A DNA stretch of 34,245 nt from an uncultured Verrucomicrobiota bacterium (lineage in GTDB: Bacteria; Verrucomicrobiota; Verrucomicrobiia; Limisphaerales; UBA9464), in the NCBI GenBank assembly GCA_903842505.1, contig CAIMMI010000209.1, positions 1 to 34,245 of the forward strand. Reading direction: 5' to 3'. The notes under the pieces were generated by a model. It searched no databases, had not been told where the DNA came from, and saw only the letters and a list, made by a program, of their open reading frames with translations. Below are positions 28,026 to 34,245 of this stretch, piece after piece (within the stretch, counting starts at the first letter, position 1; each line of letters opens with the position of its first letter). A program made the translations under genes and the position numbers.

Positions 28026-28131
28026 ACTCCAATTATCTGGCTGATGAAGCTTCGCGTAGCTTTGCGCAAAAGTTCTCATCTTTTTGGGTACGGGTGTGCC
28101 CTTAGGTGATTCGTGCGCAGCTTCGGCAGCC

Positions 28132-28145: not shown

Positions 28146-31100
28146 ATGCGACAACATAAAACATGTCAGTGGTGGCGGGCTTTGGCCCTCGCCTTGGCGG
28201 GTGCCGGATCGGTGGCCCAGGCCGGTGTCACGACGATCAACTTCAACAGCGATCCAGCGGCAGCCAGCCTGTATCGCGAACTCGGTAACGGTGCTGCCGA
28301 ATGGCGCGCCTCCGGTGGCGCCTCCGGCGGCGCTACGGACGGTTACCTGGCCCTGAACGACGCCAAGGGCGGCCAGCAGGCTACCTTGGTGTTCAAGGAC
28401 CTGGAAAGCGGCTTGGTCGTCAAGGCGTTCAAGTTCGAAGTCGACCTCCGCATCGGCGGCGGTACTGGCCAACCGGCAGACGGCTTCTCGATCAACTACG
28501 TCCGCGGCGGGGATGAACTCCTCTCCAACGCGGACCAGGACATCGATCCCAGCTACCTCAACTTCGCTGGCGCCGACGGGGCGGCCTCCCTCCCGGAAGA
28601 AGGTTCCCGCACCGGTCTCGGCATCGGTTACGACACCTGGCAGTCCGGTGGTGCCGGCGCTGGACATCCGGGCGGAATCACCGACGTCGTCGGTATCTCC
28701 GTTCGCGTCGATGGAGCCCTGATCACCCAGCTCCCTGTTCCCCTCCGTCCAGGCAACACCTTCCCGGGCGGTACCTACGACGAAGCTCCCTACCGCAACC
28801 TGCCTGCTGCCAGCGCGAACTACGCTAGCTCGATGCAGACCGGTGCGCTGAGCGACGTCGACCTGAACGACGACGGCGTGGTGGATGGCGGCGACGCCAA
28901 CACCCCGCAGCCTGTCCTCGCCGATGTGGGCGCGGAAGTCTGGGGCAAGTGGATCAAGAATCTCCGCTGGGAGAAGTTCGTTGCCGAGTTGACCGAAGAC
29001 TCGAAGGTCAAGATCTCCTGGAAGGGCGTCGAGCTGACCCCCGCCGGCGGTCTGTCCGTGGACTTCGGGCCGAGCTCCGGCCGCATCGTGTTCGCCGGCC
29101 GTACCGGTGGCGCGTGGGAAGCCCACCACATCGACAACATCGTCCTGACGACGGTGGCCTCCGACAAGATCGTCGTTGGCACGGCCGCTTCGAACCCGAT
29201 CGGGTTCACGCTCGGGATCGAAGACTCCGGTGCCTCCGTGCTCAATCCGAGCTCGGTCGTGCTGAAGCTCAATGGCGCTGCGGTCGACGGTTCGAAGGTC
29301 ACGACCGCGAAGACCGGTGCGACGACCTCGATCAACTACCGCAACCTGGCGGCGCTCCTTCCTATCGGTTCGACGAACACGGTTGAGGTCACGGCCCGCG
29401 ACACCCGCAACCTCGCGGTGACTGCGACCCGCACGTTCGTCGTGGCTCCGTACACGGTGCTCGGGTCTGACCTCGCCGTGCCGAGTGCCAACCTCTCCCA
29501 GCCCGGCTTCGCGCTGCGTGTTAACCAGATCGCCACCGGCCAGGGCAACGACATCCTCCGCGCCGAGCGCCAGCTCCATGGGGATCTGGGTGAGAACATC
29601 TCGTTCGAGCCCACCTCGGTCGAGACCACCACGATCAACTACAATCAGGACGCTCCGGCCAACGCGGGCAACTTCAACGCCGGCAACGGTGCTGAAGACC
29701 GCGCGATCCCCGGCGTCGACACTGTTACGAACTCCGACAACATCGCGATGGAGATCCAGACGGTGCTCGAGTTCAACGAGGCCGGTGTCTACACCCTGAT
29801 CTTCAACTCGGACGACGGCTTCCGCACGACCTTCGGCAAGAACTCCCGCGAGCAGATCACGGGTCTGATCGCTTCGCAGTTCGACGGTGGCCGCGGTGCG
29901 TCCGATACGGCCGTGACCCTCGTTGTTCCGACGCCGGGCTTCTTCCCGGTCCGCTCGGTCTGGTTCGAGGGCGGCGGTGGCGCCAACCTCGAGTGGGTCG
30001 TCATCCGTGACGGCAAGCCCCGCGCGCTGGTCAACGACGGCACGCCGAACTCCGTTCGCGCGTTCCGCTCTTCGACCGCTGCGGTTCCCCCCGGTGTCGT
30101 GTTCGCCTATCCGGCGCGCCAGACCGGCAACCCGTACCTCGCTGACCTGCCGATCACCCTCGACATCGCGGACGGCTCGGCCGCCACGGTGAACGGTGGT
30201 TCGATCGTCCTGAAGGTCAACGACACCACGGTGACGCCGACGATCTCCAAGGCCGGTACCACCACCACGGTGCGCTACGCCGCCCCGGGTCAGTTCCCCT
30301 CGGGCACCACCAACAAGATCGACCTGGCCTTCACGGATTCGGCCGGTGGTTCCTATGCCGGCACGTACACCTACAACGTCGCCTCCTACACCACGATCCC
30401 CGTCAGCTTCCGCCTGCCGGCTTCTGCGGTAGACGCGACCAAGCCTGGCTTCATCTTCAAGCCCATCCAGACGGATCAGGGTCTTGAGAACCGCGTTCGC
30501 CGCGCTGACCTCCACACCCGCGGCCTGTACGGCCTGCCGAACTACGCCGACCTGTCGGCTGCTGATACGACCGGTTCCTTCGTCATCACGGACGTAATCA
30601 ACTTCGATCAGGGTCCGGGTAACGCGGGTGCCTTCAACGGCAACAACGGCTTCCCTGAAGTCGGCATCCCGGGCATCCCGGGCACGGTGCTGCCCAATGG
30701 CAACACCTCCACCGACAACATCTCGGCGGAAATCCTGACGGTCGTCGAGTTCCCCACCGCGGGTCTCTACACCTTCAGCTTCAACTCGGACGACGGCTTC
30801 GGAACCTGGTTCGGTCACCCGAAGGATCAGGCCCGCATGCTCGTCGGCCAGTTCGACGGTGGTCGCGGTGCGAGCGACACGTTCTACAGCGTGCTCATCA
30901 CCCAGCCGGGTCTGTACCCGGTCCGCAGCGTCTGGTTCGAAGGCGGCGGCGGCGCGAACCTCGAGTGGTACACCCGCAAGAACGGCGTGAGCGCACTCCT
31001 GAACGACTCCGCCAACGGCGGCCTGAAGACCTACCAGTACACGGGCGCCACCGGCCCGACCTGGGTCAAGAAGCTCACGCCCGCCAACGGCGCGAACCGC

Positions 31101-32123
31101 GTCTCGCTCAATGACCCGATCGTCGCGGTCATCGCGGACGGCACTGGCTCGGTCACCCCGGCCTCGGTCTCCATGAAGCTCAACGGCGTTGCGGTTCCTG
31201 CGACTGTCAACAAGTCCGGCACCGAGACCACGGTCTCCTACAAGCCGTCCCTCGTTGCGGGTTCGACCAACACCGTCGAAATCGCCTTCGGCGACCGCAC
31301 GATCACCAGCTCGTTCACCGCCGGGGACCTCCCCAGCGTTGCGTTCTTCATCGAAGCTGAAGACTTCAACCACAGCAGCGGCCAGTCCGAGGCCGCCGCG
31401 AGCGACATGGCCAACTACCGCGGTGGCGCCTACGGCGGCAAGGCTGCCGTCGCCGGTGTTGACTACAACCGCGGCAACGAGGGCGCCTCGCCCTTGTACC
31501 GCATCGGTGAAGACCCGCAGGTCCCGATGGACGTGAACTACTCCGAGGCCTGGGGCCGTGGCTTCACGGATCTGGAAGTGAACTTCAAGATCGGCTGGAT
31601 CGGTGCGGGTCAGTGGTACAACTACACCCGGACGATCCCGGCCGGTAAGTACAACGTCTACGCCGGCCTTTCGCACGGTGAGTCGCTCGCCGGTCAGCTG
31701 TCGGGCAGCCTCCAGAAGGTCACGGCCGGTGCCAACACCGCGAACCAGACCCTCGAAGAACTCGGCACGTTCACCGGTCAGGGAACGGGCGGCTGGGGTG
31801 TCAATCGCCTCGTGCCCCTCCAGAACGCGGGCGGCGAGAACGTGGCCCTCGACCTCGGCGGCGTGACCACGCTCCGCTACTCCACCACCAACGGTGACTT
31901 CGACTTCCTGATCCTGACGCCGGCTCCGACCGAGCGCCCGATGTTCACGAAGACGACGCTCAACGCCAACGGCACGCTCACCCTCGAGTGGACCGGCGGC
32001 GGCACCCTGCAGGCGGGCCCGTCCATCAGCGGTCCTTGGGCGCCCGTGGCAGGTGCCACCAGCCCGTACACGTTCACGCCGGATCCGGCTGTGGGCCAGC
32101 TGTACGGCCGCATCGTCCGCTAA
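28146..32123 (+). CDS. Large secreted multidomain protein: lectin-like, Ig-like, two PA14-like and CBM6-like domains
   Basis: This 1325-residue protein has a signal peptide (1-27, ALALALAGAGSVAQAG). Residues 28-335 resemble an L-type lectin/ConA-like sandwich (DGFSINYVRGGDE; Ca-site-like DLNDDGVVDGGDAN at 239-252). Then come an Ig-like unit (about 340-435), a PA14-like unit (440-640), another Ig-like unit (650-745), a second PA14-like unit (750-965) and a third Ig-like unit (970-1058). A CBM6-like domain follows (1065-1258; FIEAEDFNHSSGQSE, WYNYTRTIPAGKYNVYAGL). The C-terminal TLEWTGGGTLQAGPSISGPW motif is common in Verrucomicrobiota exported proteins. No catalytic domain is seen, so it is probably a carbohydrate-binding adhesin or scaffold. 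Strong codon bias toward C-ending codons, a good ribosome binding site and a perfect terminator suggest high expression. Confidence 0.9.
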   Translation: MRQHKTCQWWRALALALAGAGSVAQAGVTTINFNSDPAAASLYRELGNGAAEWRASGGASGGATDGYLALNDAKGGQQATLVFKDLESGLVVKAFKFEVDLRIGGGTGQPADGFSINYVRGGDELLSNADQDIDPSYLNFAGADGAASLPEEGSRTGLGIGYDTWQSGGAGAGHPGGITDVVGISVRVDGALITQLPVPLRPGNTFPGGTYDEAPYRNLPAASANYASSMQTGALSDVDLNDDGVVDGGDANTPQPVLADVGAEVWGKWIKNLRWEKFVAELTEDSKVKISWKGVELTPAGGLSVDFGPSSGRIVFAGRTGGAWEAHHIDNIVLTTVASDKIVVGTAASNPIGFTLGIEDSGASVLNPSSVVLKLNGAAVDGSKVTTAKTGATTSINYRNLAALLPIGSTNTVEVTARDTRNLAVTATRTFVVAPYTVLGSDLAVPSANLSQPGFALRVNQIATGQGNDILRAERQLHGDLGENISFEPTSVETTTINYNQDAPANAGNFNAGNGAEDRAIPGVDTVTNSDNIAMEIQTVLEFNEAGVYTLIFNSDDGFRTTFGKNSREQITGLIASQFDGGRGASDTAVTLVVPTPGFFPVRSVWFEGGGGANLEWVVIRDGKPRALVNDGTPNSVRAFRSSTAAVPPGVVFAYPARQTGNPYLADLPITLDIADGSAATVNGGSIVLKVNDTTVTPTISKAGTTTTVRYAAPGQFPSGTTNKIDLAFTDSAGGSYAGTYTYNVASYTTIPVSFRLPASAVDATKPGFIFKPIQTDQGLENRVRRADLHTRGLYGLPNYADLSAADTTGSFVITDVINFDQGPGNAGAFNGNNGFPEVGIPGIPGTVLPNGNTSTDNISAEILTVVEFPTAGLYTFSFNSDDGFGTWFGHPKDQARMLVGQFDGGRGASDTFYSVLITQPGLYPVRSVWFEGGGGANLEWYTRKNGVSALLNDSANGGLKTYQYTGATGPTWVKKLTPANGANRVSLNDPIVAVIADGTGSVTPASVSMKLNGVAVPATVNKSGTETTVSYKPSLVAGSTNTVEIAFGDRTITSSFTAGDLPSVAFFIEAEDFNHSSGQSEAAASDMANYRGGAYGGKAAVAGVDYNRGNEGASPLYRIGEDPQVPMDVNYSEAWGRGFTDLEVNFKIGWIGAGQWYNYTRTIPAGKYNVYAGLSHGESLAGQLSGSLQKVTAGANTANQTLEELGTFTGQGTGGWGVNRLVPLQNAGGENVALDLGGVTTLRYSTTNGDFDFLILTPAPTERPMFTKTTLNANGTLTLEWTGGGTLQAGPSISGPWAPVAGATSPYTFTPDPAVGQLYGRIVR

Positions 32124-32158: not shown

Positions 32159-32188
32159 GGGCCGGGCACTTGTTGCCCGGCCCTTTTT
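32159..32188 (+). terminator. Rho-independent terminator
   Basis: A perfect 10-bp stem GGGCCGGGCA (32159-32168) and TGCCCGGCCC (32174-32183) encloses the loop CTTGT and is followed by five T residues (32184-32188). It lies 35 bases after the stop of the large secreted protein gene and isolates that gene from the FG-GAP gene. Confidence 0.93.
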
Positions 32189-32281: not shown

Positions 32282-32430
32282 GGCAGTTGGGTTATCCACC
32301 GATTTCACCGATTACACAGATGGGCTGGAACGTGACGCCCCGCCTCATGGGTGTTTCCGTTTCAGCAGCGAGGTGAAATCAGACCCTTTCCCAGCCGCCT
32401 TCCAATCTGTGGAATCGGTGTAATCTGTGG
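32282..32430 (+). repeat. CACCGATTTCACCGATTACA-type repeat with inverted second arm
   Basis: The left arm (about 32295-32321) reads CCACCGATTTCACCGATT then ACACAGATG. The right arm (about 32403-32430) reads AATCTGTGGAATCGGTGTAA then TCTGTGG, an imperfect inverted copy differing at only a few positions. About 80 bases separate them. The left part is shared with 9382-9450. The element fills most of the 327-base gap between the terminator and the next start codon, so any promoter of the FG-GAP gene lies in or beside it. Confidence 0.85.
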
Positions 32431-32450
32431 CCCTAACCGTGCTTTCCAGG

Positions 32451-34245
32451 ATGAACTCCACCGCGCCTTTCCGGCTTCCCGGATGCTGGGCTTCCTGCCT
32501 CGCCGCGTGTCTGACGACGGCTGCGCTCCAGGCCGATGGCTTCACCCGCCTCGATGCCGTTGCTGCCGGGATCGGCTTCACGAACCGCATCGCCCCCGAG
32601 CGTTACCTGACCAACCAGATCCCCCTCAATGGAAGTGGCGTTGCGCTGGGCGACGTCGATGCGGATGGACGCACGGATGTCCTCTTCGGTGGACTGCAGG
32701 GCACTGCGGGACTCTATCGGAATCTTGGCGGATGGAAGTTCACCAACGCCACGGTCAGCGCCGGTTTCGATTGGGCCGGGGTGGACCTCACCGGCGTGGC
32801 GTTTGCGGACCTCGATGGAAATGGCTCGTTGGACCTCGTCGCCAACTCGATCGGGGCTGGGACAACGATCTGGGCGAATGACGGCAAGGGCGCGTTCGCA
32901 CGCAGAGCGACGCTGAATCCCCGACGCGCCGGAATGAGCACCGCGATCGCCGACCTCGACGGGGACGGAGACCTCGACCTCTACGTGACCAACTACCGGA
33001 GCGTCACGGTCCGGGACGAACCCGGCGGAAGGTTCTCTGTACGCGACGACGGCCAGGGACCCCGTGTGGTCCAATACAATGGTCGACCGGTCACCGATGA
33101 GGACCTCGTCGGACGCTTCACGGTTGGCCCCGGCGGTGTTCGCGAAAATGGGGAGCCCGATGGACTGTTCTTGAACGACGGTCAGGGACGATTCCAGGCG
33201 GTGTCCTGGTCTGATGGAACCTTCCGCGACGAAGGCGACCAACCACTGGGGGGGGCGCTCTTCGACTGGGGGTTGAGCGTCATGGCCCGGGACTTCACGG
33301 GGGACGGTCTGCCCGACCTTTACGTCTGCAACGACTTCGAGTCCCCGGACCGTTTCTGGATCAATCGGACCCAACCCGGTGGCCCGCTTCGGTTCCAGGC
33401 CGCCCCGATCCTGTCCCTCCGCAACACGAGCGCGTTCTCCATGGGGGTGGACGCGGCCGACGTGGATCGGGACGGCCACGTGGATTTCCTCGTGCTCGAC
33501 ATGCTCTCGCGGGATCACCGGATGCGGAACCTGCAGGTCGCCGGCTTGCCGCCGAGCATGGCGTCGGTCGGGGTGTTCGAGGATCGGCCGCAATTCTCGC
33601 ACAACACGCTGTTCCGTGGACGGGGCGATGGAACGTTCGCCGAGGTCGGGCGCCTCGCCGGCGTCAGCGCCAGTGAGTGGTCGTGGACTCCTGTCTTCCT
33701 CGATGTCGATCTGGACGGGTTCGAGGATCTGCTCATCTCGAACGGCCACGAACTCGACATGATGGACATCGACGTCAGTGACGAGGCTGAAGCGTTGAAG
33801 TCCCGGAAGCGCCTGAGCCCCCGGGAGCAACTGGAACTGCGACGGGGATTCCGTCGGTTGAACGCGCCCAATGCCGCCTTCCGGAACCGCGGTGGATTGC
33901 AGTTCGAGGATGTCTCGACCGCGTGGGGATTTGATGTCGCGGAAGTCGGCATCGGCATGGCCGCTGGCGACCTCGACAACGACGGCGACCTCGACAACGA
34001 CGGCGATCTCGATCTCGTGGTCAACAATCTCAACGCCGCGCCGACCCTCTATCAGAACCAGGCCACCGCAGCGCGCCTTCCGATCCGCCTTCAGGGTCTC
34101 GGTTCCAATCGCCACGGGATCGGCGCGCGCATCCGGGTCACAGGCGGTCCTGTTCCGCAGTCCCAGGAGATGATCGCTGGGGGGCGCTACCTGTCGTCGG
34201 ATCAGGCAATGCGCGTCTTCGCGGTGGGAACGGCGCAGGAATTGG
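32451..34245 (+). CDS. FG-GAP/VCBS repeat protein with ASPIC/UnbV domain (partial, runs off the window)
   Basis: The first 598 residues are present; the gene is cut by the window end. It starts MNSTAPFRLPGCWASCLAAC, a signal peptide with cysteines that may be a lipoprotein-like or Sec signal. At least seven Ca-binding FG-GAP loops follow, including GDVDADGRTDVLFGG, ADLDGNGSLDLVAN, ADLDGDGDLDLYVTN, RDFTGDGLPDLYVCND and LDVDLDGFEDLLISNG, as expected for integrin-like propeller blades. Near the end, LQGLGSNRHGIGARIRVTGG and GGRYLSSDQAMRVFAVG match the ASPIC/UnbV domain. Such proteins are extracellular; function is unknown, perhaps in cell-surface adhesion or as binding partners of degraded glycans. 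Confidence 0.93.
   Translation, partial: MNSTAPFRLPGCWASCLAACLTTAALQADGFTRLDAVAAGIGFTNRIAPERYLTNQIPLNGSGVALGDVDADGRTDVLFGGLQGTAGLYRNLGGWKFTNATVSAGFDWAGVDLTGVAFADLDGNGSLDLVANSIGAGTTIWANDGKGAFARRATLNPRRAGMSTAIADLDGDGDLDLYVTNYRSVTVRDEPGGRFSVRDDGQGPRVVQYNGRPVTDEDLVGRFTVGPGGVRENGEPDGLFLNDGQGRFQAVSWSDGTFRDEGDQPLGGALFDWGLSVMARDFTGDGLPDLYVCNDFESPDRFWINRTQPGGPLRFQAAPILSLRNTSAFSMGVDAADVDRDGHVDFLVLDMLSRDHRMRNLQVAGLPPSMASVGVFEDRPQFSHNTLFRGRGDGTFAEVGRLAGVSASEWSWTPVFLDVDLDGFEDLLISNGHELDMMDIDVSDEAEALKSRKRLSPREQLELRRGFRRLNAPNAAFRNRGGLQFEDVSTAWGFDVAEVGIGMAAGDLDNDGDLDNDGDLDLVVNNLNAAPTLYQNQATAARLPIRLQGLGSNRHGIGARIRVTGGPVPQSQEMIAGGRYLSSDQAMRVFAVGTAQEL
33969..34004 (+). repeat. Exact in-frame 18-bp tandem duplication
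   Basis: The unit GACCTCGACAACGACGGC occurs twice without a break (33969-33986 and 33987-34004). It adds six residues, giving DLDNDGDLDNDGDLD, inside a calcium-binding FG-GAP loop. Absence of any substitution between copies suggests a recent slippage event. Confidence 0.9.

Follow-up and report, generated by a model that had tools for sequence, protein, structure and literature searches.

A lectin-like protein with two predicted PA14 calcium/sugar sites and a shared C-terminal tail in an uncultured Limisphaerales bacterium

What might a protein of 1325 residues do when it carries two copies of the same unit and no recognizable enzyme? This is the question raised by the gene at 28146-32123 on the forward strand of contig CAIMMI010000209.1, from an uncultured Verrucomicrobiota bacterium of the order Limisphaerales (assembly GCA_903842505.1). 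The window, meaning the whole 34,245-nucleotide stretch that was analyzed, is one entire contig of a 5.2 Mb draft assembly in 362 contigs, and we call the gene's product the window protein. Our answer, in which we have reasonable confidence, is that it is a secreted, non-catalytic, multivalent glycan-binding surface protein, whose binding probably depends on calcium (Ca2+). The basis of this answer is the order of the domains, their predicted folds, the conserved positions of the Ca ligands, and an old duplication; from these we infer sugar binding, surface display, and adhesion or capture. The protein is a new arrangement of known domains, which are as follows.

28146-32123, +, open frame of the window protein, 1325 residues
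28146..28223, +, signal-peptide-like N-terminus, residues 1-26, ending ...SVAQA before G (sequence read by eye)
28227..29159, +, L-type (legume-like) lectin domain, residues 28-338 (AlphaFold model m32cf120c4296; ERGIC-53 fold match; Pfam matches of homologues)
28860..28895, +, single EF-hand/dockerin-like loop DLNDDGVVDGGD, residues 239-250 (alignment)
29166..29453, +, immunoglobulin (Ig)-like domain 1, residues 341-436 (all-beta region of the model; domain hidden Markov model, HMM, built here)
29454..30089, +, PA14 domain 1, residues 437-648 (homology to unit 2; Pfam matches of homologues; Foldseek matches to Epa and MpPA14)
30105..30386, +, Ig-like domain 2, residues 654-747 (model me7bee17b4a13; domain HMM; HYR at E 0.052, below cut-off)
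30387..31043, +, PA14 domain 2, residues 748-966 (Pfam GLEYA and PA14; Flo, Epa, and MpPA14 chains)
31065..31313, +, Ig-like domain 3, residues 974-1056 (Big_5 at E 0.012, below cut-off; model)
31329..31940, +, domain like carbohydrate-binding modules (CBM) 6 and 35, residues 1062-1265 (homologue profiles, model, alignment)
31947..32120, +, C-terminal module (shared tail), residues 1268-1325 (profile searches of the own genome, order, and phylum)

Domain folds and the predicted calcium site

Two alignments of homologues, A2 (25 rows of the N-terminal half) and A3 (16 rows of the C-terminal half), were scanned against Pfam row by row. AlphaFold models covered residues 28-657 (mean predicted local distance difference test score, pLDDT, 83.5) and 652-1325 (mean pLDDT 73.8), and these predicted structures were compared with PDB using VIA-align, which gives Z scores, and Foldseek. 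An earlier note, made from the letters alone, had placed two Ig-PA14 units at about residues 340-640 and 650-965; they fall at 341-648 and 654-966. The same note's lectin-like and PA14-like folds are supported by profiles and by the comparison of predicted structures with PDB, and so, more weakly than these two, is its CBM6-like fold.

For PA14 the evidence begins with the window protein itself, where GLEYA (7.1e-7) and PA14 (3.1e-6) both score above the cut-off, best in unit 2. PA14 was also found in 18 of the 25 A2 rows and GLEYA in 17. With Z scores of 10.5-12.7, the second PA14 domain superposes on chains of Flo, Epa, and MpPA14 (about 12 to 12.7 for KpFlo2, Flo1, and the Marinobacter and Marinomonas PA14 lectins), and Foldseek matches the first to Epa9 and MpPA14. 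When a profile of 34 PA14 units was searched against PDB, it returned MhPA14 (6m8m) at 6.2e-7 and MpPA14 at 1.2e-5.

That alignment gives a meaning to the repeated cores that the earlier note had quoted, FDGGRGASDT and PVRSVWFEGGGGANLEW; both recur exactly, the former at residues 579 and 903 and the latter at 601 and 925. In PA14 domain 1 the motifs are NSDDGF (554-559), FDGGRGASDT (579-588), and WFEGGGGANLEW (606-617); in domain 2 the same three stand at 880-885, 903-912, and 930-941. According to the MhPA14 report (PMC6650083), Asp136 and Asp137 form the D-cis-D pair at the sugar-holding Ca ion, Asp181, Gly183, and Ala185 are further ligands of that ion, and the cleft is formed by loops 1, 2, and 3, with Asn154 mentioned in docking. 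As read from the printed alignment, the Asp-Asp of NSDDGF (DD556-557; DD882-883 in unit 2) aligns with Asp136-Asp137, the Glu of WFEGGGG (E608; E932 in unit 2) with Asp181, and FDGGRG with the stretch around Asn154; at the positions of Gly183 and Ala185 the window units have Gly. Both units thus retain the Asp-Asp pair and the third-ligand position (556-557 and 608; 882-883 and 932), and of the 34 PA14 units 33 have the first Asp of the pair and all 34 have the second. Going by sequence and predicted models, then, the PA14 profile and fold, the Asp-Asp pair, and the third acid with backbone ligands of the Flo/Epa/MpPA14 type are all present. Because the quoted cores align on the MhPA14 loops, we read them as the loops of a predicted PA14 Ca2+/sugar site; their near-identity is that of predicted site loops and no mark of a recent duplication.

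The N-terminal domain is recognized mainly by fold. Residues 1-312 of its model (28-339 of the protein) superpose on ERGIC-53 at Z 18.5, with a root-mean-square deviation (rmsd) of 2.6 over 193 aligned residues, and the predicted structure is a legume-lectin-like beta sandwich. Pfam PF18483 (L-type lectin) was matched by 5 of the 25 A2 rows, best 4.1e-6, the window's own row not being among them. The PADG and D-x-W motifs, invariant in the lectin-domain alignment, are ones that we take to resemble legume-lectin motifs. The EF-hand/dockerin-like loop lies in an insert of this domain and is kept in close relatives and missing from distant rows.

For the CBM-like domain, CBM_6 was matched by 3 of the 16 A3 rows (best 5.6e-4) and CBM60 by 5, with neither in the window's own row; other families in A3 were GLEYA (10/16), PA14 (2/16), and F5/8 type C (5/16). 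Compared with CBM35 and CBM-bearing chains, the CBM part of the model reaches no more than Z 7.5-8.4. Two side observations concern this domain: a giant frame of ~3800 residues in the same genome (L055, G000:C198) includes a CBM-like domain that shares 58% identity with the window protein's, and several related genomes have frames of ~3600-5100 residues with such a match.

Neither Pfam nor NCBIfam showed a catalytic family in the window protein, in agreement with the earlier note, and searching PDB by sequence, whether with the full-length protein or alignment A1, gave no match. The multi-modular enzymes that head the Foldseek rows of the C-terminal half (xanthanase, rhamnosidase) were rejected at template-modelling (TM) scores of 0.08-0.12 and rmsd >20, as were the enzyme rows in VIA-align of the C-terminal model, which aligned via the PA14 or CBM part.

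Several results weigh against a glycan-binding protein built in this way. The window's own A2 row, PA14 unit 1 included, matches no Pfam family at E 0.5. Within the predicted site, MhPA14 Gln182, a sugar contact, is Gly in the window units, and the position of Asp181 is Glu here (of the 34 units, 23 have Glu, 7 Asn, 3 Gln, and 1 Ile). Searched against PDB by sequence, a lectin-domain profile of 21 rows found no L-type lectin, only one weak congerin match at E 0.62. The Z scores of the CBM part lie near the background of 7-8, its model is weak (pLDDT 40-50 in a low-confidence insert), and F5/8 type C was matched by as many A3 rows as CBM60; the F5/8 matches may be explained by some relatives having ~150 additional residues between CBM and tail.

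Function, rival explanations, and the age of the repeat

In the mechanism that we propose, the chain would begin with a signal-like N-terminus and an L-type lectin and continue with two PA14 lectins, spaced by Ig domains, whose predicted Ca2+ sites are of the Flo/Epa/MpPA14 type; after a third Ig spacer it would end in a CBM6/35-like module and the C-terminal module. Polysaccharide or cell-surface sugars would be held via Ca2+ at the two like PA14 sites; the two further glycan-binding folds would add contacts, strength being gained by avidity. The outcome would be a cell attached to polysaccharide, or polysaccharide captured, and the short C-terminal module would probably route or anchor the protein. 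The earlier note's suggestion of glycan capture fits these lectin-, PA14-, and CBM-like folds in a protein without a catalytic family.

Its other suggestion, a scaffold, found no specific support. Such a scaffold would capture polysaccharide by holding the substrate or by binding secreted hydrolases, with the EF-hand/dockerin-like loop as the docking point. Four glycan-binding-type folds without an enzyme, the dockerin-like Ca loop, and a GHL6-type protein elsewhere in the window all speak for it. Dockerin type I, however, is defined by two Ca-loop/helix repeats, and here there is a single loop and no pair (Dockerin_1 was matched by 2 of the 25 A2 rows, best E 0.067); the Pfam scans, which covered a few proteins and were not a genome-wide search, showed no cohesin family, the GHL6 gene is some 24 kb distant, and neighbours differ between relatives. 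We therefore regard a scaffold as unlikely.

Less probable still is a structural layer or matrix protein, S-layer-like, in which the lectin folds serve stability and not sugar binding. The chain is long, rich in Ig domains, and acidic (pI 4.7), with no Cys beyond residue 27, and Foldseek gives a weak match to the S-layer protein SbsC (TM 0.1); loss of sugar binding would, however, leave unexplained why the Ca/sugar-site loops are among the best-conserved parts of the PA14 units.

As for the repeat itself, the two Ig-PA14 units are 39% identical over 309 columns (E 9e-60), far beyond chance, and the window's two units are 42% identical in the PA14-unit comparison. When 59 PA14 units were placed in a tree, 23 first units grouped in one clade (support 99/88) and 20 rows in a second (98/98). 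The latter holds 17 second units and three rows labelled first only owing to genes split over frames (L077, L078). The remaining 16 rows fall outside both clades, most of them more distant and several on long branches. Since first and second copies lie in separate clades, the duplication predates the species sampled; by this sequence comparison it is old. A recent tandem duplication, or homogenization of the two units by gene conversion, has in its favour the exact repetition of two peptides, 10 and 17 residues long, and can be dismissed as very improbable, ruled out by the tree and by codon differences: besides the low overall identity, each window unit is nearest to a same-numbered unit elsewhere (at most 67% identical for unit 1 and 77% for unit 2), and in a 147-nt core stretch with 100 positions identical between the units, 8 of the 31 shared residues have different codons.

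The earlier note had also proposed comparing the copy number of the module in orthologues, and the relatives do have from one to three PA14-type matches. The survey took in 35 loci, several of them on the same contigs as loci from the other genome set. Both units were found at 17 (14 with both whole, L070 cut at a contig end, and L077 and L078 with broken frames), one unit followed by the CBM at three (L074, L076, L093), and three PA14-type matches, some partial, at a further three (L079-L081). Five loci stop at a contig edge ahead of a readable second unit (L068, L072, L073, L086, L088), three show the lectin and no PA14 match (L082-L084), and four are distant (L089-L092). Another genome of the genus has a paralogue (L041) in which the modules are present but the N-terminus gives no lectin match. 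Separately, the gene is split over several frames in two genomes, L077 (6238-14972) and L078 (4925-11581); L077 has two split copies in tandem, for which decay or assembly error are candidate causes.

Some details of the gene and its relatives complete this picture. An in-frame GTG at 28113 is an alternative start; we prefer the ATG at 28146 because the signal-peptide-like N-terminus, as judged by eye, comes directly after it. With regard to the high expression that the earlier note thought apparent, third-position GC is 0.85, inside the spread of the other frames in the window. Upstream lies a G6PDH gene, a neighbour common among the searched loci only to L060/L040, which are on one contig. 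By record title the relatives are mostly Verrucomicrobia, many from lakes or groundwater, together with two Pedosphaera or Pedosphaerales, one Planctomycetaceae, and three Akkermansia muciniphila; two loci from a single bin are titled just "bacterium". The gene relatives in four of these (L065, L072, L088, and L083; the three Akkermansia muciniphila titles and the Planctomycetaceae one) are close to the versions of uncultured lake Verrucomicrobia, and their bins may be mislabelled.

The C-terminal tail and the FG-GAP neighbours

The tail model was built from the last 56 residues of 14 sequences, three of which (L109, L119, L120) come from other proteins found beside FG-GAP genes. In the own genome 14 matches reached E <= 0.1, and 11 of these also reached E <= 1e-3. 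Apart from the window's there are 13, of which all but the one on C124 were examined. Of these 12, 10 lie within 0-3 residues of the stop, including one that is itself a row of the model (L109); L144, a partial match, ends 23 residues before it and L143 129. The tail bearers of the own genome include L109, L136-L142, L145, and L146. Nine tail proteins were scanned with Pfam, and seven had LamG, PA14, Ig-like, fn3, or NAGPA while two had no Pfam family; signal-like N-termini were called by a simple hydrophobicity rule, which is no proof of secretion. Across the order, 77 of 97 sampled genomes (own included) have a tail match at E <= 1e-3, with up to 42 per genome, and in the phylum sample 11 of 145 do (own included). 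All 20 high-scoring matches picked by hand in the order, and so not a random sample, end at most 3 residues from the stop codon.

The tail drew no match in Pfam or NCBIfam, and its best E against PDB was only 0.11. By eye it ends ...GRIVR-stop, with no hydrophobic end. Tails of the type IX secretion system (T9SS), PEP-CTERM, and GlyGly-CTERM are short C-terminal modules on otherwise unrelated secreted proteins, and the tail is like them in this respect; it is unlike them in having neither an NCBIfam match nor a hydrophobic end. Exosortase is present twice in the source genome. A PEP-CTERM substrate was rejected, as the C-terminus has no PEP motif and no transmembrane helix (by eye) and no NCBIfam match. 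NCBIfam found no T9SS tail in the window protein or the tail, and a SprA_N search for the T9SS apparatus found nothing, its 14 controls being equally silent. Shared by otherwise different, secreted-looking proteins of the order, the tail is a candidate for a sorting or anchoring signal peculiar to this lineage.

Two features lie downstream of the window gene, one of them the next gene.

32159..32183, +, intrinsic-terminator-like hairpin of 10 pairs (9 GC) followed by TTTTT, 3' of the window gene
32427..34244, +, FG-GAP_3/UnbV_ASPIC gene, cut by the contig end (FG-GAP_3 2.7e-43; UnbV_ASPIC 0.0049, below cut-off in this fragment)

Longer relatives of this neighbour also pass the UnbV_ASPIC cut-off, and contig C269 starts with a 46-residue piece identical to the gene's end, with more FG-GAP frames after it. 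Large FG-GAP proteins of ~1200-1500 residues, often with UnbV_ASPIC, recur in related genomes (L108, L110-L112, L117-L120); their genes stand partly in tandem arrays, and some are near tail-bearing genes.

Adjacency was counted in eight genomes with 47 FG-GAP clusters, against 20000 random-placement simulations. A tail match lay within 5 kb of 11 clusters, where 1.47 were expected and 0/20000 simulations reached as many, and within 3 kb of 8 (1.04 expected). Because three of its 14 rows had come from beside FG-GAP genes, the tail model was rebuilt without them, and the counts were again 11/47 within 5 kb (expected 1.33; 0/20000) and 8/47 within 3 kb. Further removal of the contigs of the PA14-lectin genes, which also loses one tail match each in G023 and G029, left 6/47 within 5 kb (expected 1.16; 28/20000) and 3/47 within 3 kb (expected 0.81; 910/20000). 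About half of the signal therefore comes from PA14-lectin genes, and the rest is moderate. These figures should be read with the caveats that related genomes are not independent, that the random placement takes no account of contig edges or of gene clustering, and that the merging of clusters was manual; FG-GAP/tail adjacency is absent from two of the eight genomes (G023, G029).

Tentatively, the tail might be a C-terminal address label by which the order directs proteins, ~10-40 of them in many genomes, into an undescribed route of export or surface anchoring, and the large FG-GAP/UnbV propeller proteins encoded next to some of them might be partners; we consider this a lead, somewhat less likely than not to be right.

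A general linkage of the orthologues to FG-GAP was rejected, as a frame like the window's was present in the fetched flanks of only 3 of the 35 loci (L076, L087, L093), many of which are on short contigs. An operon of the window gene with the FG-GAP gene was likewise set aside, given the terminator-like hairpin and about 300 bases between them; terminator-class sites are no commoner in the window than in shuffles (3 found, mean 3.8). The intergenic region also holds an inverted repeat (32296-32430) with arms CCACCGATTTCACCGATTACACAGATGGG and CCAATCTGTGGAATCGGTGTAATCTGTGG, 86% complementary and 77 nt apart; a pattern of 24 bases taken from one arm recurs in the other at 3 mismatches and found no match in shuffles.

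Likeness to known systems and significance

The closest counterparts of the PA14 domains are the lectins of RTX adhesins (MhPA14 of MhLap, 6m8m; MpPA14 of MpIBP, 5j6y and the 6x-series), with which they share the PA14 fold, the Asp-Asp pair, the third acid of the sugar-binding Ca site (Glu in the window protein), and small loop residues. Unlike these, the window protein has two Ig-spaced copies, an L-type lectin, and CBM-like domains, no RTX family is among its Pfam matches, and Gly replaces Gln182. The A domains of the yeast Flo/Epa adhesins have the PA14 fold and the Ca-pair motif in common with it. Those adhesins are anchored by glycosylphosphatidylinositol (GPI), whereas the window protein is bacterial, has glycine-rich loops, and showed no counterpart of GPI anchoring.

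SraP, a surface protein of a Gram-positive host with an L-type lectin followed by beta domains, supplies the first Foldseek row of the N-terminal half through its ligand-binding region (PDB 4m00, E 1.4e-8); there is no full-length match to the window protein (rmsd 34 over the whole alignment). The L-type lectins ERGIC-53, VIP36, and the legume lectins share the fold of the N-terminal domain (Z 17.4-18.5 over 173-202 residues) at 10-17% identity, and the window lectin differs from them by an insert with a Ca-loop-like motif. Among the papers listed on Verrucomicrobia/Limisphaerales lectins, PA14, FG-GAP, secretion, and C-terminal sorting, the titles and abstract openings contain no description of the window protein or its tail.

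The window protein adds a bacterial lectin architecture (L-type lectin, two Ig-PA14 units, and a CBM-like domain) in uncultured Verrucomicrobia, and its predicted Ca-site residues can be tested directly. Of greater consequence as a lead is the tail. Should it prove to be a sorting signal, much of an order's surface proteome could be listed from sequence alone, and the tail would point to an unknown export or anchoring machine.

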